Positions 33,960 through 64,000 of a stretch of 64,000 bases of DNA are shown here, piece by piece. Position 1 is the stretch's first letter. Each line of letters starts with the position of its first letter. Origin of the DNA: Virgibacillus natechei (GTDB taxonomy: Bacteria > Bacillota > Bacilli > Bacillales > Amphibacillaceae); the NCBI RefSeq assembly GCF_026013645.1, contig NZ_CP110224.1:2790001-2854000 (forward strand). Direction: 5' to 3'. The translations under genes and the position numbers were made by a program. The notes below the pieces were generated by a model. That model worked only from the letters and a program-made list of their open reading frames with translations. It was not told the origin of the DNA and did not search any database.

Positions 33960-34050
33960 GATTATCTTCCCAATTTACACTCTTCCCACCAATGACTCAC
34001 TAACCGTATCGATGACATTTTTATTAATTCATCAACTTTCTCCAGCATCA
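33960..34050 (-). pseudogene. short relic of a 4-oxalocrotonate tautomerase
   Basis: Minus-strand codons EKVDELIK and then a frameshifted trace of DTVSES and GGKS match the better preserved tautomerase relic at 60160-60350 in cassette copy 2. About half of the relic is deleted here. It lies just downstream of the dioxygenase gene. Confidence 0.6.
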
Positions 34051-34072
34051 GCCCTAATCTGTCAACAAGGTT

Positions 34073-35062
34073 TTATTCAATGGTTTGTTTTACAGGTTGC
34101 ACACTTGGAGTCCCGTAATTATAAAAACTTTCCGGAAGTCTTGGTCCGAACCATATTGAGCTTTTTTCAAGGTCTGATTTATTGGAAACATCCCATACGA
34201 CTGTTTCCCAATCCGGATCAAAGATGAGATATCCCGAATCTCCAAAAAGCTCTATACGATTACCACCAGGTTCGTAAATATATAAAAAGTACGCTTGGGT
34301 CGTCCCATGTTTACCAGGTCCCATCTCTATTTCTATCCCGTAATCAGCACAAAGATCTGCAATATCAAATAAATGCTGCGGATAACCGTACCAAAAAGCC
34401 ACGTGATGAAGTCGACCCTTTTGTCCGGTGGCATCGCGAACCATGGCAATTTCATGAACGAGATTGGACACACTTAACCATGCTCCTATTTGGGTTTTTC
34501 CTTCACCCAATTTTAATTCCCTCAGATTGAACCCGAGTTCATTCTGTAAAAAATTTTGATTGGGCTCAACATCAGAAGCCATGATGTTAACATGATCAAG
34601 ACGTCTTGTCGGTACTCCTCTTAAAGGGCGTCTTTGAGGGCGGTTTTTTAATAAGCTTTTTTCTTCCGATGGGGCTTTGTAATAATCAACATCCCACAAT
34701 AGTTCAAATTGATGCCCATCTGGCGAAAGGAACTGATAAGCAGGTCCATGCCCTCTATCGCCTTCAATCCACCCCTGTCCAACACCAGCTTCCTCCAGGG
34801 AAATTGCAGATTCTTCCAATGCCTCGGGTGAAGATGTTCTCCAAGCAATGTGACCTAATCCGGCATGTGACGCCTCAGTAACTTTTAGTGAATGATGGTA
34901 GAAATCTTCGTATGCTCGCAGATAAACAGATTGCCCTTTACGTTCCGTCTCCGTTAAACCCAAAATTTCCTTAAAAAACCACAATGTTTCCTCCAATTTT
35001 GGTGTTAACAGTTCCACGTGTGCTAATTGAGCTACAGGTGGTTTTTCTAATCTTGATCTCAT
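34073..35062 (-). CDS. extradiol ring-cleavage dioxygenase (catechol 2,3-dioxygenase family), copy 1
   Basis: A 329-residue type I extradiol dioxygenase made of two VOC domains. The Fe(II) ligands are visible at His157 (RLDHVNIM), His220 (RLHHVAFW) and Glu271 (GNRIELFG); acid-base and second-sphere residues of XylE-type enzymes are at His203 (LVHEIA), His252 (PGKHGTT) and Tyr261. It cleaves a catechol next to the diol, giving a yellow 2-hydroxymuconate semialdehyde. In view of the ACMSD-like genes nearby the true substrate may be a carboxylated catechol such as protocatechuate. Near-identical to the gene at 60535-61530. Confidence 0.9.
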
Positions 35063-35179
35063 TTTCAGTCTCCCTTTTTTAGAATAGTAGTTCCCTTCAC
35101 TATCTTTTTGCCCAGAAGCCCTAACCTCTTCGCCAAAAGCTTGCGTGCTCCCACTTATTAGTTAGATAAACACAAAAAA

Positions 35180-35193
35180 TGCAATCGCTTCCA
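35180..35193. promoter_or_regulatory. candidate cre box upstream of extradiol dioxygenase, copy 1
   Basis: TGCAATCGCTTCCA matches the CcpA consensus at 12 of 14 positions, 118 bp upstream of the dioxygenase start; the same 14 bases are kept in copy 2 (61648-61661). Confidence 0.5.
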
Positions 35194-35322
35194 ATTAAAC
35201 TTAAAAAATTAAATAAAAGTTCTATAGAAAGATTAATAATAGTATATAGGTTAAGTTAAGTTATTAAAAGATTACAATTCCTTTATACGGAATCATCAGA
35301 AAATTTATTGAATTTTTTAGAA

Positions 35323-35354
35323 CGAGGAAAACCTTCATGAAAGAATCTTCCTCG
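35323..35354. terminator. terminator between tautomerase and dioxygenase, copy 1
   Basis: CGAGGAA (35323-35329) pairs with TTCCTCG (35348-35354); the minus strand continues TTCTAAAAAATT and the plus strand has ATCTTTTTG nearby. It lies 30 bp after the tautomerase stop, so the dioxygenase gene is probably read from its own promoter in the following gap (35063-35322), which otherwise holds no gene. Confidence 0.6.
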
Positions 35355-35383
35355 ATTCATCTTTTTGTGACCACCCAACCATA

Positions 35384-35575
35384 TTACTTCCCTAATTTCT
35401 TTGCTGATGTTCCCCCAATGGCCCAGTGTGTTTTTGGCACCTCATCCACAATAACGCGTACATTTTCTTTTGGTGCATCGAGTGATTCACTAACTGCATT
35501 GGTCACATTTTCCATCATCGCTTCAATTTTTTCAGGAGATCTTCCTTCCATAATTTGCACATTGATAAGTGGCAC
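35384..35575 (-). CDS. 4-oxalocrotonate tautomerase, copy 1
   Basis: A 63-codon 4-OT. The start is GTG at 35575, which places the catalytic proline directly after the initiator Met (PLINVQIMEGRSPEK), as required because processed Pro1 is the general base. GAGGGAG lies upstream. The arginine in the ENVRVIVDEV strand is also kept. It converts 2-hydroxymuconate to 2-oxo-3-hexenedioate. It lies 17 bp after the broken decarboxylase. Confidence 0.92.
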   Translation of the reverse strand: MPLINVQIMEGRSPEKIEAMMENVTNAVSESLDAPKENVRVIVDEVPKTHWAIGGTSAKKLGK

Positions 35576-35592
35576 GTCTTTCACTCCCTCTT

Positions 35593-35768
35593 TTATTCTT
35601 TAACGAAAAAGGATACTTCGCCTAGCCCACCATATTTTGCTTGGACAAAATCACCAGGAGACAGTCGAACGGCTGCTGTGATTCCACCGGATAAAATGGG
35701 CTGTCCTGCTTTTCTTTTTCTGCATTATGCACATAATCAGCAAGCTCTTTGATTTTATTTTTATCCAA
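35593..35768 (-). pseudogene. 4-oxalocrotonate decarboxylase remnant, internal deletion
   Basis: Only the first ~20 codons (LDKNKIKELADYVHNAEKEK) and the last ~37 remain. Compared with the intact gene at 62150-62935, about 613 bp (equivalent of 62268-62880) are missing, with a TTTT microhomology at the junction (35710-35713). The loss is not a multiple of three, so the C-terminal part is out of frame. The original last codons read FFVKE-stop, without the hairpin element found in copy 2. Cassette copy 1 therefore cannot make this enzyme. Confidence 0.93.
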
Positions 35769-35781
35769 GTCGTTCCCCTCC

Positions 35782-36576
35782 TTATTCTGCGAATGAAATA
35801 TGTACTTCCCCTAGGTCGGCAAACTTTGCGTAAAAATGATCCCCAGGCTCTGCTTCCATGGCACCCGATAGTGCTCCAGATAGAATGACCTCACCAGCTT
35901 TTAATGTAATCCCGTAGTTTGCTAGTTTATTAGCCAACCAGGCAACGCATTTTGCTGGGTCTCCTAATGCCGCTGCGCCAACACCAGTGTTTTGCAGGAC
36001 ATCATTTTTGTAGAGCACCATTCCCATTTGCTTTAAGTCTACGTCTGCAATTTTTTTGGGGTTTCCACCAAGTACATATAATCCGGATGAAGCATTATCT
36101 GCAACCGTATCCGCTAATGTGATCTTCCAATCTTTAATGCGACTGTCTATAATTTCAAGCGCTGGAACAACTGCATCCGTTGCTTTTAATACATCTAATG
36201 ACGTTACATTTGGTCCAACTAAATCGTCTTTCAAAATAAAGGCAATTTCACCTTCTACTTTTGGCTGCAGGACACGATCTGTTGAAACTGTTCCTCCATT
36301 TTCAACGCTCATCTGATCTAATAAATGTCCATAATCTGGTTCACCTACACCTAACGCTTCTTGCATTACTTTAGATGTTAAGCCAATCTTTTTCCCTGTA
36401 ACCCGTTGCCCGCTATTCACCTTTTGTTCGATCGTGTGTAACTGTACGTGATAAGCGTCATCAACGGAGAGTTCAGGATCCAGCCCTGTAATTGGCTGAA
36501 CCCCTTCCTTTTTACTCCAAGCATCGGCTAAATGCTTCGCATGACTTACCGTTTTCGGTGTGTGTTCGGTTTTCAT
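35782..36576 (-). CDS. dmpE: 2-oxopent-4-enoate (2-keto-4-pentenoate) hydratase, copy 1
   Basis: A 264-residue fumarylacetoacetate-hydrolase-fold hydratase adding water to 2-oxopent-4-enoate to give 4-hydroxy-2-oxovalerate. Family motifs: KIGLTSKVMQEALGV, DQMSVENGG, metal-binding region QPKVEGEIAFIL, VPALEIIDSRIKDWKI, DNASSGLYVLGG and GEVILSGALSGAMEAEPGD. AGGAGG precedes the ATG. It follows the semialdehyde dehydrogenase gene by 11 bp. It differs from copy 2 by only a few residues (e.g. NYG versus TYG near residue 222). Confidence 0.92.
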   Translation of the reverse strand: MKTEHTPKTVSHAKHLADAWSKKEGVQPITGLDPELSVDDAYHVQLHTIEQKVNSGQRVTGKKIGLTSKVMQEALGVGEPDYGHLLDQMSVENGGTVSTDRVLQPKVEGEIAFILKDDLVGPNVTSLDVLKATDAVVPALEIIDSRIKDWKITLADTVADNASSGLYVLGGNPKKIADVDLKQMGMVLYKNDVLQNTGVGAAALGDPAKCVAWLANKLANYGITLKAGEVILSGALSGAMEAEPGDHFYAKFADLGEVHISFAE

Positions 36577-36587
36577 TTAAGATCCTC

Positions 36588-38045
36588 CTACATTTTGAGC
36601 GTAATATTTGTTAATTCCGAGTAGAAATCAAAACTATGAGCTCCACCTTCGCGACCAATACCACTATGTTTCATCCCGCCGAATGGTGTGCGTAAATCAC
36701 GTAGGAACCATGTGTTAACCCAAACGATACCAGCTTCGATTTGTCTGCTGAAACCAGTGGCGCGTTTAACATTACTCGTCCATAAACTTGCACTTAAACC
36801 GTAATGTGTATCATTTACTTGTTCCAGTACTTCTTCTTCTGTATCAAAAGGAACAACGGTTACAACTGGTCCAAAGATTTCTTCGCGTACACATCTTGAA
36901 TCTTTTCCTAAACCTGTAATAATTGTTGGTTCCACGAAAAAGCCTTTGTCAAATCCTTCAGCAGCTTTACCACCTGTCAAGAATGTTCCACCTTCTTCTT
37001 TCGCAATATCCAAGTAGCCAAGCACTTTATTATAGTGTTCTTCACTAACTAATGCGCCAACCTTTGTATCTGCATCGAACGGATCACCGACAACTAATTC
37101 TTTTGCTTTTGCTGAAAATCGCTCCAGAAATTCATCGTAAATCGGACGCTCCACATAAATTCTTGAACCACATAGACAAACTTCGCCTTGATTAATGAAA
37201 CTAGAACGAACGGTTGTCTCAATCATGTCTTCCATGTCAGCATCTGCGAAAATAACGTTTGGATTTTTGCCACCAAGTTCAAAGGACAGTTTTTTCAATG
37301 TTGGTGCTGCAGCCTTCATAATTTCAGTTCCTGTTACCGTTTCACCAGTAAAGGCAATCGCATCGACATCTTCATGGGAAGAAAGAGCTGCTCCTGTATC
37401 ACCAAATCCATGAACCATGTTTACCACACCATCTGGTACACCGGCATCCTTACAAATTTGTCCCAGTATGGTCGCTGTTATTGGTGTCACTTCAGATGGC
37501 TTCATCACAGCCGTATTACCCGCCGCAAGCGCTGGAGCCAACTTCCACGTCATAAGAAATAATGGTAAGTTCCATGGATTAATGAGCCCCACAACACCCA
37601 CTGGACGACGAATAGCATAATGGATAGCTAAATCATCTTGCTCATAAGCTTCTGTTCCTACTGATGTCATATAGTCAGCAAAGAAATAGAAATTATTCGC
37701 TGCACGATCGATATCAACATTCGTGGAAAGCCATAATGGTTTGCCTGTATCCAAGGATTCAAGTCTCGCCAATTCATCTTTTCTTTCCAAGATCAAATCA
37801 CCAATTTTACGAATGATGTTGGAGCGCTTTCGTAAAGGCATATTTGCCCATTCACCTTTGAGTGCTTTTCTGGCAACACTTACTGCTTGATCAACCTCTT
37901 CTTTTCCGCCCTCTGCAATATTTCCTAATACCTCTTCTGTTGCTGGATTCACGTTTTCAAACGTTTTTCCATTGGTTGATTGTACATATTCTCCATTAAT
38001 GAAATGCGAACAATTCATTACATCCTGTTTCGTTTCGGTTTGCAT
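36588..38045 (-). CDS. dmpC: 2-hydroxymuconic semialdehyde dehydrogenase, copy 1
   Basis: A 485-residue NAD-dependent aldehyde dehydrogenase of the DmpC/XylG/PraB group: NPWNLPLFLMTWKLAPALAAGN, AFTGETVTGTEIM, Glu in FELGGKNPNVIF, catalytic Cys in QGEVCLCGSRIYVE and the C-terminal GGMKHSGIGREGGAHSFDFY. It oxidises 2-hydroxymuconate semialdehyde to 2-hydroxymuconate. The ATG at 38045 follows AGGAGG; an in-frame extension upstream is rejected because it spans that site. First gene of cassette copy 1. Confidence 0.92.
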   Translation of the reverse strand: MQTETKQDVMNCSHFINGEYVQSTNGKTFENVNPATEEVLGNIAEGGKEEVDQAVSVARKALKGEWANMPLRKRSNIIRKIGDLILERKDELARLESLDTGKPLWLSTNVDIDRAANNFYFFADYMTSVGTEAYEQDDLAIHYAIRRPVGVVGLINPWNLPLFLMTWKLAPALAAGNTAVMKPSEVTPITATILGQICKDAGVPDGVVNMVHGFGDTGAALSSHEDVDAIAFTGETVTGTEIMKAAAPTLKKLSFELGGKNPNVIFADADMEDMIETTVRSSFINQGEVCLCGSRIYVERPIYDEFLERFSAKAKELVVGDPFDADTKVGALVSEEHYNKVLGYLDIAKEEGGTFLTGGKAAEGFDKGFFVEPTIITGLGKDSRCVREEIFGPVVTVVPFDTEEEVLEQVNDTHYGLSASLWTSNVKRATGFSRQIEAGIVWVNTWFLRDLRTPFGGMKHSGIGREGGAHSFDFYSELTNITLKM

Positions 38046-40320: not shown

Positions 40321-40350
40321 TTATGCAGTAGGAAGATATATCCTAACTGC
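40321..40350. repeat. partial copy of the two-hairpin element (second stem only)
   Basis: TTATGCAGTAGGA ... TCCTAACTGC repeats the terminal hairpin of the element at 40725-40812 with a shorter stem and no first hairpin. On the minus strand it is flanked by CTTG, like the full copies, which follow TTTTTG/TTTTCG. Confidence 0.6.
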
Positions 40351-40724: not shown

Positions 40725-40812
40725 TTAGAAAACTTGGTTGTCACCAAGGTTTTCGGTGACAGCCTTAGTTGCACTTATGCAGTAAGAAATATGGATATAT
40801 TTTCTTAACTGC
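40725..40812. repeat. two-hairpin mini-element at the ferredoxin 3' end
   Basis: 88 bp running from TTAGAAAACTTGG to AACTGC. Stem 1 is TGTCACC/GGTGACA; stem 2 is GCAGTAAGAAATAT against ATATTTTCTTAACTGC with bulges. The linker GCCTTAGTTGCACTTATGCA is identical to that in the copy at 62071-62157, while both stems differ with compensating changes. On the minus strand the element begins inside the ferredoxin gene and provides its last codons, GGC AGT TAA. Confidence 0.85.
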
Positions 40813-41041
40813 CAAAAAAGCTCTCAGCCTTTTCCAGATATACTTCTTGTGCAGGATTTAAATCATGCTCATCCACGATTGCATCGACTGGACAAGCAGC
40901 TACGCAAGCACCGCAATCAATACATGTGTCTGGATCAATAAAAAATTGGTCGGGTCCCTCTACGATACAGTCGACCGGACAAATACTAACACATTCTCCT
41001 GATTTTTCACTAAGACACGGTTCCGTTATAACAAATGCCAA
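40805..41041 (-). CDS. 7Fe-type bacterial ferredoxin
   Basis: A 78-residue ferredoxin with the 7Fe cysteine pattern C9-x7-C17-x3-C21-P plus C25, and C40-x2-C43-x2-C46-x3-C50-P, hence probably one [3Fe-4S] and one [4Fe-4S] cluster. The start is TTG at 41041 after AAAAGGAGAGG. The last codons and stop are contributed by the two-hairpin element. It ends an operon encoding a Rieske oxygenase and a NADPH-ferredoxin reductase, so it is the likely electron carrier between them; a Rieske or plant-type 2Fe-2S ferredoxin would be usual. Confidence 0.92.
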   Translation of the reverse strand: MAFVITEPCLSEKSGECVSICPVDCIVEGPDQFFIDPDTCIDCGACVAACPVDAIVDEHDLNPAQEVYLEKAESFFGS

Positions 41042-53914: not shown

Positions 53915-53962
53915 AACGCCTAGCAGTTAGCAGGATGTTCTAGTACAGCTACACCAGCTCTT
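53915..53962 (-). pseudogene. scrap of 4-oxalocrotonate decarboxylase
   Basis: About 45 bp (TTAGCAGGATGTTCTAGTAC...) match the decarboxylase gene of copy 2 around 62313-62355, the segment encoding EHPAKSVARL. It abuts the truncated dioxygenase relic, so a third cassette has been reduced to fused pieces here. Confidence 0.55.
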
Positions 53963-53979
53963 AATGTGTCAAAAAGGTT

Positions 53980-54618
53980 TTATTTAATGGTTTGTTTTAC
54001 AGGTTGCACACTTGGAGTCCCGTAATTATAAAAACTTTCCGGAAGTCTTGGTTCGAACCATATCGAGCTTTTTTCAAGGTCTGATTTATTGGAAACATCC
54101 CATACAACTGTTTCCCAATCCGGATCAAAGATGAGATACCCCGAATCTCCAAAAAGCTCTATACGATTACCACCAGGTTCGTAAATATATAAAAAATATG
54201 CTTGGGTCGTCCCATGTTTACCAGGCCCCATCTCGATTTCAATCCCGTAATCGGCACAAAGATCTGCAATGTCAAACAAATGCTGCGGATATCCGTACCA
54301 AAAAGCCACGTGATGAAGTCGACCCTTTTGTCCGGAGGCATCACGTACCATGGCAATTTCATGAACGAGATTGGACACACTTAACCATGCCCCTATTTGA
54401 GTTTTTTCTTCACCCAGTTTTAATTCTCTCAGATTGAAGCCGAGTTCATTTTGCAAGAAATTTTGATTGGGCTCAACATCGGAAGCCATGATGTTGACAT
54501 GATCAAGACGTCGTGTCGGTACTCCTCTTAAAGGGCGTTTTTGAGGGCGATTTTTTAGTAAGCTCTTTTCCCTCGAGGGAACGTTACAGTACTCAACATC
54601 CCATAAGATTTCAAATAG
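53980..54618 (-). pseudogene. 5'-truncated extradiol dioxygenase (third cassette copy)
   Basis: The last ~212 codons of the cassette dioxygenase, from FEILWDVEYCNVPSREKSLL onward, keep all three iron ligands and the normal stop, but the N-terminal domain is missing; the break at ~54618 is 11 bp from the end of the next gene. An internal ATG (54489) could start a one-domain protein without a sensible ribosome site. It is more diverged from copies 1 and 2 than they are from each other. Confidence 0.85.
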
Positions 54619-60350: not shown

Positions 60351-60534
60351 GAACCCCGTCCCTTCAATTTATTCCTAATTCTTAAAGCGATACATCATCT
60401 AAACCATTTATATATAGCGCTTACAAACGTAATACTCTAATAACCTAGGCTGACCAGAATCCTCCCTATTCACAAGTCTCGAATTGACATAATATTCTTA
60501 TGAATAAACATCAGCCTAATCTGTCAACAAGGTT

Positions 60535-61530
60535 TTATTCAATGGTTTGTTTTACAGGTTGCACACTTGGAGTCCCGTAATTATAAAAACTTTCTGGAAG
60601 TCTTGGTCCGAACCATATCGAGCTTTTTTCAAGGTCTGATTTATTGGAAACATCCCATACGACTGTTTCCCAATCCGGATCAAAGATGAGATACCCCGAA
60701 TCTCCAAAAAGCTCTATACGATTACCACCAGGTTCGTAAATATATAAAAAGTACGCTTGGGTCGTCCCATGTTTACCAGGTCCCATCTCTATTTCTATCC
60801 CGTAATCAGCACAAAGATCTGCAATATCAAATAAATGCTGCGGATAACCGTACCAAAAAGCCACGTGATGAAGTCGACCCTTTTGTCCGGTGGCATCGCG
60901 AACCATGGCAATTTCATGAACGAGATTGGACACACTTAACCATGCTCCTATTTGGGTTTTTCCTTCACCCAATTTTAATTCCCTCAGATTGAACCCGAGT
61001 TCATTCTGTAAAAAATTTTGATTGGGCTCAACATCAGAAGCCATGATGTTAACATGATCAAGACGTCTTGTCGGTACTCCTCTTAAAGGGCGTCTTTGAG
61101 GGCGGTTTTTTAATAAGCTTTTTTCTTCCGATGGGGCCTTGTAATAATCAACATCCCACAATAGTTCAAATTGATGCCCATCTGGCGAAAGGAACTGATA
61201 AGCAGGTCCATGCCCTCTATCGCCTTCAATCCACCCCTGTCCAACACCAGCTTCCTCCAGGGACATTGCAGATTCTTCCAATGCCTCAGGTGAAGATGTC
61301 CTCCAAGCAATGTGACCTAATCCGGCATGTGACGCCTCAGTAACTTTGAGTGAATGATGGTAAAAATCTTCGTATGCTCGCAGATAAACAGATTGCCCTT
61401 TACGCTCCGTTTCCGTTAAACCCAAAATTTCCTTAAAAAACCACAATGTTTCCTCCAATTTTGGCGTTAACAGTTCCACGTGTGCTAATTGAGCTACAGG
61501 TGGTTTTTCTAATCTAGATCTTGTTCTCAT
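60535..61530 (-). CDS. extradiol ring-cleavage dioxygenase, copy 2
   Basis: A 331-residue two-domain VOC extradiol dioxygenase, identical to copy 1 (34073-35062) apart from a two-residue longer N-terminus (MRTRSRL versus MRSRL) and a Met/Ile change near residue 88. Iron ligands: His in RLDHVNIM, His in RLHHVAFW, Glu in GNRIELFG. The ATG at 61530 follows AAAAGGGGAG; a longer in-frame extension upstream has no ribosome site. It has its own upstream region with a cre box and is separated from the tautomerase by a terminator. Confidence 0.9.
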
Positions 61531-61647
61531 TTTTCGGTCTCCCCTTTTCAGAATAGTAGTTCCCTTCACTATCTTTTTCCCCAGAAGCACTAACCTCTTC
61601 GCCAAAGGCTTGGTGCCCCCACTTTATTAGTTGGATAAATTCAAAAA

Positions 61648-61661
61648 TGCAATCGCTTCCA
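61648..61661. promoter_or_regulatory. candidate cre box upstream of extradiol dioxygenase, copy 2
   Basis: TGCAATCGCTTCCA, identical to 35180-35193, 118 bp upstream of the dioxygenase start. The rest of the 320-bp gap holds the terminator at 61792 and no gene. Confidence 0.5.
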
Positions 61662-61791
61662 ATTAAACTTAAAAAATTAAACAAAAGTTCTATAGAAAGA
61701 TTAATAATAGTATATAGGTTCAGTTAAGTTATTAAAAGATAACAATTCCTCTATACGGAATCATCAGAAAATTTATTGAATTTTTTAGAAC

Positions 61792-61821
61792 GAGGAAGAC
61801 CTTCATGAAAGAATCTTCCTC
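61792..61821. terminator. terminator between tautomerase and dioxygenase, copy 2
   Basis: GAGGAAG pairs with CTTCCTC; minus strand continues into TCTAAAAAATT. Counterpart of 35323-35354 with one base pair changed on the flank. Confidence 0.55.
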
Positions 61822-61850
61822 ATCTATCTTTCTGTGACCACCCAACCATA

Positions 61851-62042
61851 TTACTTCCCTAATTTCTTTGCTGATGTTCCCCCAATGGCCCAGTGTGTTT
61901 TTGGCACCTCATCCACAATGACGCGTACATTTTCTTTTGGTGCATCGAGTGATTCACTAACTGCATTGGTCACATTTTCCATCATTGCCTCAATTTTTTC
62001 AGGAGATCTTCCTTCCATAATTTGCACATTGATAAGTGGCAC
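61851..62042 (-). CDS. 4-oxalocrotonate tautomerase, copy 2
   Basis: A 63-codon 4-OT with the same mature protein sequence as copy 1. GTG at 62042 starts translation so that Pro1 (PLINVQIM) becomes the catalytic base. GAGGGAG lies upstream. The preceding gap to the decarboxylase holds the 87-bp two-hairpin element; copy 1 lacks it. Confidence 0.92.
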   Translation of the reverse strand: MPLINVQIMEGRSPEKIEAMMENVTNAVSESLDAPKENVRVIVDEVPKTHWAIGGTSAKKLGK

Positions 62043-62070
62043 GTATTTCACTCCCTCTATTATTCTTTAA

Positions 62071-62157
62071 TTAGAAAACTTGGCATTCACCAAGCCTTTC
62101 GGAGAATGCCTTAGTTGCACTTATGCAAATAGGAAAGTTTTATGGTTTCCTATTTGC
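62071..62157. repeat. two-hairpin mini-element, filled site
   Basis: 87 bp from TTAGAAAACTTGG to TATTTGC. Stem 1 GCATTCACC/GGAGAATGC, linker GCCTTAGTTGCACTTATGCA, stem 2 GCAAATAGGAAA/TTTCCTATTTGC. At the matching place in cassette copy 1 (35603/35604) the element is absent and the flanks TTCTTTAA and CGAAAAAGG join directly without a target duplication. On the minus strand it starts after CTTTTTCG and supplies the decarboxylase codons GGC AAA TAG. Confidence 0.9.
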
Positions 62158-62935
62158 CGAAAAAGGATACTTCGCCAAGACCACCATATTTGGCTTGGAC
62201 AAAATCACCAGGAGACAGTCGAACTGCTGCTGTGATTCCACCGGATAAAATGGGCTGTCCTGCTTTTACTTTTTCTCCCTTTTTGTGGAGCATATTAGCA
62301 AGTCTTGCAACTGACTTGGCTGGATGCTCGAGTACAGCGGCACCAGCTCCGAGTGATTGAATTTCTCCGTTAATGGATAACGTTACACCAACGACATCCA
62401 ATTCTAATTCCTCTGGCTTTCTCAAATACGTTCCAAACACTGCCCCTGCTGCAGAAGTGTTATCCGCAATAACATCTGGCAACGTAAAATTGAAATTTTC
62501 ATAACGGCTATCAATGATCTCAATAGCTGGAAAAACATATTCCGTAGCTCGTAATACATCAAGCGTCGTAATGCCTGGCCCTTCCAAATCTCTTCCTAAA
62601 ATAAACCCAATTTCTGGTTCTACTTTTGGATGGATATAATCAGAGATGGCAATGGAATCTCCCTCTTCAACAACCATATTGTCGAATACATAGCCGTATA
62701 TGGGATCATCCACATCCATTTGTTTCATTTTGGCCTCACTGGTAATCCCCATCTTTGGCCCGATGATTTTATGACCTGCTTCCAATTTTTGACGAATCAG
62801 CTCTTCTTGAACGAGATACGACTCCTCAATGGAAAGCTCCGGATATAACTCTGAAGTAATTTTTATTATTTCCCGTTTTTCTTTTTCTGCATTGTGCACA
62901 TAATTTGCAAGTTCTTTGATTTTATTTTTATCCAA
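62150..62935 (-). CDS. dmpH: 4-oxalocrotonate decarboxylase (intact)
   Basis: A 261-residue FAH-fold decarboxylase that converts 2-oxo-3-hexenedioate to 2-oxopent-4-enoate and CO2, acting as a complex with the hydratase. Motifs: PKMGITSEAKMKQMDVDDPI, HPKVEPEIGFIL (metal Glu pair), FPAIEIIDSRYENFNFTLPD, ADNTSAAGAVFG and KAGQPILSGGITAAVRLSPGD. The start is TTG at 62935, six bases after AAGGAGGGG and 13 bp after the hydratase stop; an ATG at 62977 would overlap that gene without a ribosome site. The last two codons and the stop come from the two-hairpin element. Confidence 0.92.
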   Translation of the reverse strand: MDKNKIKELANYVHNAEKEKREIIKITSELYPELSIEESYLVQEELIRQKLEAGHKIIGPKMGITSEAKMKQMDVDDPIYGYVFDNMVVEEGDSIAISDYIHPKVEPEIGFILGRDLEGPGITTLDVLRATEYVFPAIEIIDSRYENFNFTLPDVIADNTSAAGAVFGTYLRKPEELELDVVGVTLSINGEIQSLGAGAAVLEHPAKSVARLANMLHKKGEKVKAGQPILSGGITAAVRLSPGDFVQAKYGGLGEVSFFGK

Positions 62936-62948
62936 GTCGTTCCCCTCC

Positions 62949-63743
62949 TTATTCTGCGAATGAAATATGTACGTCACCTATGTCGGCAAACTTTGCATAA
63001 AAATGATCCCCAGGCTCTGCTTCCATGGCACCCGATAGTGCTCCAGATAGAATGACCTCACCAGCTTTTAATGTAATCCCGTAGGTTGCTAGTTTATTAG
63101 CCAACCAGGCAACGCATTTTGCTGGGTCTCCTAAAGCCGCTGCACCAACACCAGTGTTTTGCAGGACATCATTTTTGTAAAGCACCATTCCCATTTGCTT
63201 TAAGTCTACGTCTGCAATTTTTTTGGGGTTTCCACCAAGTACATATAACCCGGATGAAGCATTATCTGCAACCGTATCCGCTAATGTGATTTTCCAATCT
63301 TTAATGCGACTGTCTATAATTTCAAGCGCTGGAACCACTGCATCCGTTGCTTTTAATACATCTAATGACGTTACATTTGGTCCAACTAAATCGTCTTTCA
63401 AAATAAAGGCAATTTCACCTTCTACTTTTGGCTGCAGGACACGATCTGTTGAAACTGTTCCTCCATTTTCAACGCTCATCTGATCTAATAAATGTCCATA
63501 ATCTGGTTCACCTACACCTAACGCTTCTTGCATTACTTTAGATGTTAAGCCAATCTTTTTCCCTGTAACCCGTTGCCCGCTATTCACCTTTTGTTCGATC
63601 GTGTGTAACTGTACGTAATAAGCGTCATCAACGGAGAGTTCAGGATCCAGCCCTGTAATTGGCTGAACCCCTTCCTTTTTACTCCAAGCATCGGCTAAAT
63701 GCTTCGCATGACTTACCGTTTTCGTTGTGTATTCGGTTTTCAT
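62949..63743 (-). CDS. dmpE: 2-oxopent-4-enoate hydratase, copy 2
   Basis: A 264-residue FAH-fold hydratase, same as the gene at 35782-36576 except for a handful of residues near both ends (e.g. TEYTTKT at the start and ADIGDVHIS at the end). AGGAGG lies before the ATG. Here it has its natural partner, the decarboxylase, directly downstream, whereas copy 1 is followed by a deleted one. Confidence 0.92.
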   Translation of the reverse strand: MKTEYTTKTVSHAKHLADAWSKKEGVQPITGLDPELSVDDAYYVQLHTIEQKVNSGQRVTGKKIGLTSKVMQEALGVGEPDYGHLLDQMSVENGGTVSTDRVLQPKVEGEIAFILKDDLVGPNVTSLDVLKATDAVVPALEIIDSRIKDWKITLADTVADNASSGLYVLGGNPKKIADVDLKQMGMVLYKNDVLQNTGVGAAALGDPAKCVAWLANKLATYGITLKAGEVILSGALSGAMEAEPGDHFYAKFADIGDVHISFAE

Positions 63744-63754
63744 TTAAGATCCTC

Positions 63755-64000
63755 CTACATTTTAAGCGTAATATTTGTTAATTCCGAGTAGAAATCAAAA
63801 CTATGAGCTCCACCTTCGCGGCCAATACCACTATGTTTCATGCCGCCGAATGGTGTGCGTAAATCACGTAGGAACCATGTGTTAACCCAAACGATACCAG
63901 CTTCGATTTGTCTACTGAAACCAGTAGCACGCTTGACATTACTCGTCCATAGACTTGCACTTAAACCATAGTGTGTATCATTGACTTGTTCCAGTACTTC
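63755..64000 (-). CDS. dmpC: 2-hydroxymuconic semialdehyde dehydrogenase, copy 2, 5' end outside window
   Basis: The last ~81 codons of the semialdehyde dehydrogenase (EVLEQVNDTHYGLSASLW, SRQIEAGIVWVNTWFLRDLR, GGMKHSGIGREGG and the TLKM terminus in the corresponding frame), nearly identical to copy 1. The catalytic part lies beyond base 64000. Confidence 0.9.
   Translation of the reverse strand, partial: EVLEQVNDTHYGLSASLWTSNVKRATGFSRQIEAGIVWVNTWFLRDLRTPFGGMKHSGIGREGGAHSFDFYSELTNITLKM

Follow-up and report, generated by a model that had tools for sequence, protein, structure and literature searches.

The two copies of a duplicated cassette in the genome of Virgibacillus natechei differ by an 87-bp segment, which raises the question of what this segment is and how it came to stand in only one of them. 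The locus lies in the window, the 64,000-nt stretch of contig NZ_CP110224.1 analysed here, whose numbering is used for the features listed below. A first-pass annotation had modelled the segment as a non-autonomous element of the IS200/IS605 type that lands at gene 3' ends. The evidence assembled here suggests that it belongs to a group of 85-95-nt non-autonomous mobile elements that are probably moved in trans by an enzyme acting on single-stranded DNA. This single-strand reading derives from strand bias, seamless insertion and structure, and not from an enzyme. The features on which the argument draws are the following:

62071 to 62157, minus strand: full element copy of 87 nt in cassette copy 2 (hairpin 1, linker ATAAGTGC, hairpin 2, tail TTCTAA)
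62125 to 62157, minus strand: hairpin 1, from element base 1 (fold and covariation)
62117 to 62124, minus strand: conserved linker ATAAGTGC, unpaired (fold)
62077 to 62116, minus strand: hairpin 2, with outer pairs AACT...AGTT, then GGCATTC/GAATGCC (fold and covariation)
62071 to 62076, minus strand: right end, the single-stranded 3' tail TTCTAA (fold)
62158 to 62166, minus strand: left target CCTTTTTCG, the end of a gene of the FAA-hydrolase fold (62150 to 62977, minus strand)
35603 to 35604, no strand: empty site in cassette copy 1, plus-strand junction of TTCTTTAA with CGAAAAAGG
40725 to 40812, minus strand: second full element copy (88 nt), placed where a ferredoxin gene ends; the congener G002 has the empty site (L401)
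40813 to 40821, minus strand: left target GCTTTTTTG of the 40725-40812 copy
40805 to 41041, minus strand: ferredoxin-like ORF of 78 aa ending ...AESFFGS, its stop inside the element
40321 to 40350, minus strand: possible decayed left-hairpin fragment, putative, seen by eye and not matched by the family profile

Mobility is visible in the empty sites. As the first-pass annotation had stated, the 87 bp are missing from cassette copy 1 without duplication or scar: the flanks join exactly at 35603/35604, and the junction holds no bases that would permit a shifted boundary. The second full copy that it had placed at 40725-40812 was recovered as well, and the orthologous ferredoxin gene of G002 lacks precisely this copy: there GAGAGTTTTTTTG runs directly into AGTAGG, versus GAGAGCTTTTTTG, 88 bp and AGTAGG in the window. 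Thirty ferredoxin loci were fetched, and the flanks of G002 were similar enough to place the site; among the 18 loci compared (own plus 17 relatives, best locus each), only that of the window has the element. A third exact empty site is found on comparing own copy 2940354 with L214 of G002 (TTTTTTG joined to CTATAAAC). Because the empty sites of both window copies keep the G that precedes the insertion, the element proper starts GCA and this G belongs to the target, which corrects the GGC start proposed earlier. Other insertions are old, since they are shared with a congener at the orthologous place, namely own 3023033 and 1433856 with G002 and one G002 insertion with a second congener, G001. 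Flank pairings numbered 29, and the ten displayed comprise one exact empty site, three shared insertions and six pairs too diverged for the junction to be read.

The two window copies supply the stop codons of two genes, as had been claimed. The minus-strand ORF of the FAA-hydrolase fold ends ...SFFGK within the 62071-62157 element and the ferredoxin-like ORF ends ...SFFGS within the other; the former frame, read by eye from cassette copy 1, would end ...SFFVKE without the element. This supply of stops is real but incidental, and follows from insertion into TTT-TTT-G close to where a gene ends. The duplicated cassettes themselves (34046-36700 and 60509-63867, extent as compared) are about 97% identical over most of their length; both genes of the FAA-hydrolase fold are complete in copy 2, and copy 1 lacks about 600 bp of one gene near 35720. 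A 300-bp stretch occurs three times in the window at 95-99% identity (34053-34354, 53960-54261 and 60515-60816), once outside the duplicated cassettes.

The element strand folds far better than shuffled sequences, with z scores of -5.75 for 62071-62157 and -4.88 for 40725-40812. When the window copies are folded as single-stranded DNA, hairpin 1 spans bases 1 to 33 or 34 and is followed by the open linker ATAAGTGC, hairpin 2 and a TTCTAA tail; a copy from Natribacillus has the same layout, its hairpin 1 and tail being longer. The observation that the stems of the two copies differ yet stay paired extends to the other copies as covariation. Arms from one copy pair better with each other than with those of another copy (p 1e-8 for hairpin 1 and 1e-15 for hairpin 2; mixed-arm control, p 0.34), in a test that parsed 118 of 133 distinct copies and entered 90-100 into each arm comparison. 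Structure counts agree in part: 92.8% of cells are paired vs 87.1% in shuffles, and 43 cells show two-sided changes vs 16.8, while stem pair types are no more numerous than in shuffles, of which 273 of 500 reach the same number. These counts are drawn from alignment A1, where hairpin 1 is out of register for a few AAATAGG-type copies; alignment A2, with two mis-registered rows, was left out of them.

The central linker that had been described is partly upheld, in that ATAAGTGC is open, whereas the minimum-energy folds of both window copies pair AACT with AGTT next to the right end. This pairing is absent from the centroid fold of the 40725 copy, and its four pairs are invariant in 30 copies, an invariance that argues neither for nor against it. 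RNAalifold chooses an alternative, CTTGG/CCAAG, a shorter hairpin that looks like a terminator and overlaps hairpin 2; as modelled, the two are mutually exclusive. In Rfam the element has no match, either in the window at the gathering threshold or in six loci at E up to 0.5.

The annotation had recorded two full copies only. Instead, they belong to a family with 89 distinct profile matches at E<1e-5 in 0.91 Mb of the 3.87-Mb genome, window included; own copies were collected around core-motif matches, and 89 is not a whole-genome count. The partial copy proposed at 40321-40350 shows a visible left-hairpin-like sequence but is not matched by this profile. Whole-genome BLAST gave 43 matches from 40 scored of 158 candidates, three of them reverse-strand self-matches of a hairpin, and 104 places in the genome match the core motif when up to 3 mismatches are allowed, those of a related family B included (reversed pattern, 3). 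At E<=0.001, 21 of 41 genomes including its own (20 of 40 relatives) have element matches, of which some are short and weak and no more than about 21 were counted per genome, and the exact right-end pattern is present in 38 of 146 family genomes and 16 of 46 genera, the reversed control giving zero. Among the matches listed, the hosts are Oceanobacillus, Virgibacillus, Lentibacillus, Natribacillus, Ornithinibacillus, Geomicrobium, Brevibacillus, Ureibacillus and Lysinibacillus. Plasmid and phage records held no match to the element, and viral contigs gave 2 and 0 stretches. The literature searched, which mostly did not extend to subscription papers, contained no recognisable description of this repeat family.

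Recent movement is evident in Natribacillus halophilus, in which 14 of 40 scored copies (of 184 candidates) are 100% identical over 93 bp and the flanks differ among the 30 copies fetched. Identical copies with differing flanks imply that the family moved recently and exclude a purely vertical, positionally conserved structure. They bear on the suggestion that the element is kept as a conserved mRNA 3'-end structure or terminator under selection, the empty sites then being losses. The terminator-like right half (CTTGG/CCAAG plus TTTTCT), the covarying stems and the insertions shared with congeners would fit such a structure, but scarless, exact empty sites occur in a paralogue and at two orthologous positions of G002, many identical copies have unrelated flanks, and orientation tracks replication rather than genes, as described below. 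As the sole explanation it is contradicted, by the empty sites together with the Natribacillus burst, and we regard it as highly improbable; a later regulatory role is possible. Outcomes that would speak against a mobile element were sought and did not appear, a common flank, stem covariation and empty sites all being present.

The common flank lies to the left. In the 56 full-length own copies, to which the flank statistics are confined, T makes up 79, 86, 70, 61, 96 and 77% at positions -7 to -2, and position -1 is G in 55% and A in 25% (G/A 80%). The right flank of own copies has no motif except an excess of A at +2/+3 (59% each). Natribacillus sites have T at -3 in 30/30 and A (57%) or G (37%) at -1, and the A found at +1 in 30/30 is taken as part of the element. 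Insertion occurs without target duplication and 3' of a short left-hand motif, as in IS200/IS605 transposition.

In Natribacillus the T-run is often that of an intrinsic terminator. A simple stem score taken just upstream of the T-run reaches 14 or more at 15/30 insertion sites vs 3/65 other T-runs in the same loci and 7/900 random positions (Mann-Whitney against T-run sites, p 6e-9). The enrichment is weaker in the window's genome, where a score of at least 12 was found for 12/56 copies vs 73/1122 controls (p 0.002). The control T-runs were not confined to intergenic DNA, so that some of this enrichment may stem from a tendency to avoid genes. Both window copies sit in coding T-runs and not behind clear terminators. 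The idea that the element lands at gene 3' ends as such was not supported, the upstream gene having the same orientation as the element in 45 own copies and the opposite in 40; the target is better described as a T-run, which in Natribacillus frequently belongs to an intrinsic terminator.

Orientation relative to replication was assessed with the origin placed at the contig start and the terminus near 1.93 Mb, as judged from gene orientation and GC skew. Among the 89 own copies, 68 are in the leading orientation, with the T-run strand as the lagging-strand template. Divided by flanking genes, the leading:lagging counts are 34:12 where both genes are leading, 21:7 where they are mixed and 8:2 where both are lagging, vs 64:80, 53:66 and 18:14 for intergenic T-run motif sites in the same strata (Fisher p 0.0006, 0.006 and 0.27). 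The both-lagging stratum alone is therefore not significant against motif sites (8:2 vs 18:14); pooled with the mixed stratum it gives 29:9 (p 0.002). Genes were called by a simple longest-ORF rule, and the table holds 84 of the 89 copies, three inside ORFs and two lacking a gene on both sides having been dropped. In the congeners, 18/21 chromosomal copies of G002 and 15/20 of G001 agree in strand among the matches listed, counts that are not fully independent because some insertions are shared and that leave out a G001 copy on a second contig; GC skew in the congeners' fetched regions switches sign near the middle. Local GC skew in Natribacillus is positive in the element direction at 21/30 loci, which is confounded by gene direction. 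Orientation follows replication, at about 3:1 or more and whatever the flanking genes, and available T-run sites do not.

According to the available text of PMC6006769, IS608 and ISDra2 target the lagging-strand template. The element resembles these IS200/IS605 systems and PATEs in having no target duplication, a motif in the left flank only, terminal hairpins, lagging-template orientation and seamless empty sites. PATEs derive from IS200/IS605 elements, and in IS608 the guide sequence lies 5' of the left hairpin, inside the element. The likeness could accordingly reflect true descent, the element being a PATE or MITE that carries the ends of a known TnpA/TnpB element and is moved by the Y1 transposase of that IS. 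Clean insertion, a left-side target only, hairpins and the lagging-template orientation would all follow, and Y1 matches are present in the window's genome (8), in five of six relatives and in the recently active Natribacillus (one intact IS200-type gene and one fragment). However, the ends tell against it. None of 32 Y1 loci (8 own, 19 from relatives, 5 from named genomes) and none of 30 TnpB loci, fetched from 39 matches, has the element ends as its own by nhmmer with the family profile. The copy-rich G016, one of the six relatives searched, and Ureibacillus manganicus (G044) gave no Y1 match, and TnpB matches occur in 5/6 genomes, with none in G016. The two hairpins of the element are unlike each other, and since hairpin 1 occupies the very tip, from nucleotide 1 onward, it leaves no room for a guide 5' of it inside the element. 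A guide-like stretch within hairpin 1, TAAGAAAG, is complementary to the target and suggestive by eye, and it forms 6.43 of 8 pairs with its own target vs 6.40 with swapped ones (p 0.15; 97 of 118 copies, after dropping 20 copies, mainly those of Oceanobacillus halotolerans nested in a larger repeat, and unparsed guides). The IS200/IS605 assignment thus stands for a non-autonomous element with no target duplication, a T-rich left motif, hairpins and strand bias, but not for descent, which is unlikely for want of a TnpA/TnpB locus with these ends among those fetched.

Searches for a parent returned solitary or broken copies only. In Natribacillus, blastn with a Natribacillus copy over 305 kb of contig starts found no autonomous parent. 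L031, L171 and L192 have one complete solitary copy each elsewhere in their flanks, by chance, and the TnpB locus L175 was rejected as a parent because its right-half piece lies, as placed by eye, about 65 bp beyond the IS end. At L031, a 163-bp tandem repeat of several copies extends from about 2000 to 2950, soon after the IS200-type transposase gene. Among the 14 clusters of neighbouring proteins listed, those most frequent next to copies are widespread families such as ABC transporters. The mover may have been lost from several of the genomes examined.

REP-associated tyrosine transposases (RAYTs) offer another source of mobility in trans. A REP-like element moved by a RAYT would likewise be small, high-copy hairpin DNA, mostly intergenic, and three RAYT-like subfamilies with ten genes were found in these genomes (L034, L035, L037, L072, L073, L076-L078, L082 and L084). 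Most of these genes, as judged by eye, are flanked by other palindromes, such as GGGAAGTGACAGGCAC or GGGACAGG...CCTGTCCC (none evident at L037), which disfavours RAYT as the mover. None of the ten is flanked by the element, no subfamily is present in every copy-rich genome looked at, and the recently active Natribacillus has only its IS200-type gene and fragment. At about 90 nt the element is also longer than REP sequences, and its window copies have no GTAG foot. We consider a RAYT origin improbable.

A similarly small probability attaches to RNA-based mobility, in which a small RNA would be copied into DNA at forks by a reverse transcriptase, comparable to group IIC introns, whose insertion needs no endonuclease. 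For these introns, intrinsic terminators serve as insertion points and replication forks are exploited (available text of PMC4424553), and they share a target class (strong in Natribacillus, weak in the window's genome) and a link to replication with the element. Group II maturase matches occur in 6/7 genomes, but G016 has none and the Natribacillus match is interrupted by a stop. The element, about 90 nt long, has neither ribozyme, intron ends nor reverse transcriptase, and Rfam gives no group II intron match for either the window or L030. A Natribacillus halophilus intron (L396 1-1951) lies inside an element copy, just before the right-hand hairpin half, which makes it a guest of the element; group II introns were rejected as its source on this ground.

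Movement of single-stranded DNA by an enzyme supplied in trans is the preferred reading, and it would work like IS200/IS605 transposition, although membership in IS200/IS605, PATE or REP/RAYT was not borne out by the comparisons above. We infer that the enzyme would recognise a hairpin with a single-stranded, T-rich tail whose last base is a purine, and would cut after that purine. Both the right end of the element (hairpin 2 plus TTCTAA or TTCTTTA) and an intrinsic terminator (hairpin plus T-run) could offer this signal. The freed strand, hairpin 1 first, would be joined to the cut target, and replication would close the seam. Landing behind a terminator should do little harm, the element's own right end being terminator-like, whereas landing in TTT-TTT-G near a gene end would swap the last codons and the stop. 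More tentatively, and with less confidence than in single-strand movement as such, the element may represent a distinct class of single-strand transposon whose right end mimics an intrinsic terminator, with host terminators as landing sites and an enzyme that is no recognisable Y1 transposase. If so, the same enzyme would cut 'hairpin + T-tail + purine' both at the right end of the element and in the target.

Preference for terminators, seen in the recently active species, and the missing enzyme, including the two copy-bearing genomes with no Y1 match, set the element apart from known IS200/IS605 systems. Other small non-autonomous repeats invite comparison. SPRITE of pneumococcus is terminator-like (PMC10969869, available part), bcr1 of Bacillus cereus is mentioned in the accessible portions of PMC3733652 and PMC2267715, and the latter, in the same portion, gives 'Bhal-1' as a 74-bp family of B. 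halodurans. SPRITE, BOX and RUP, all of pneumococcus, and bcr1 have other hosts, and they are set apart from the element by description, not by sequence. With a fresh burst and exact filled and empty pairs, the family is a natural system for studying how gene-free DNA of 90 nt spreads via the replication fork, and it bears on why transcription terminators serve as landing sites. It also explains an abundant repeat found in Oceanobacillus, Virgibacillus, Lentibacillus and their relatives. Should its mover prove not to be a Y1 enzyme, a new single-strand DNA recombinase would await discovery.

Several larger repeats touch on the family. Family B, another dispersed repeat, is about 500 bp long and has about two dozen listed core matches (L161-L167, L035, L111, L120 and L133). 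It holds the Rfam Bacillaceae-1 RNA (RF01690; L161 1701-1766) and a related module, TATAAGTGCGACTAAG, in 60/71-bp tandem copies. The repeat around this RNA thus resembles the element in carrying TATAAGTGCGACTAAG, a hairpin and AAGTCTTCTTT, but the Rfam match falls in another part of the repeat and on the opposite strand, and the 87-bp element has no such match. In Oceanobacillus halotolerans, many element copies lie inside a larger dispersed repeat with the constant flanks GGCTTGGCTTATGCTTG ... TCGGGGGTGATCAAGG (L244, L251, L268, L285, L289, L292, L297 and L306), a nesting which indicates that the element can become a module of another repeat. Two element copies stand directly head to tail at L160 5469-5647, and the matching region of G002 has one copy in the opposite orientation (L204 9922-10006).
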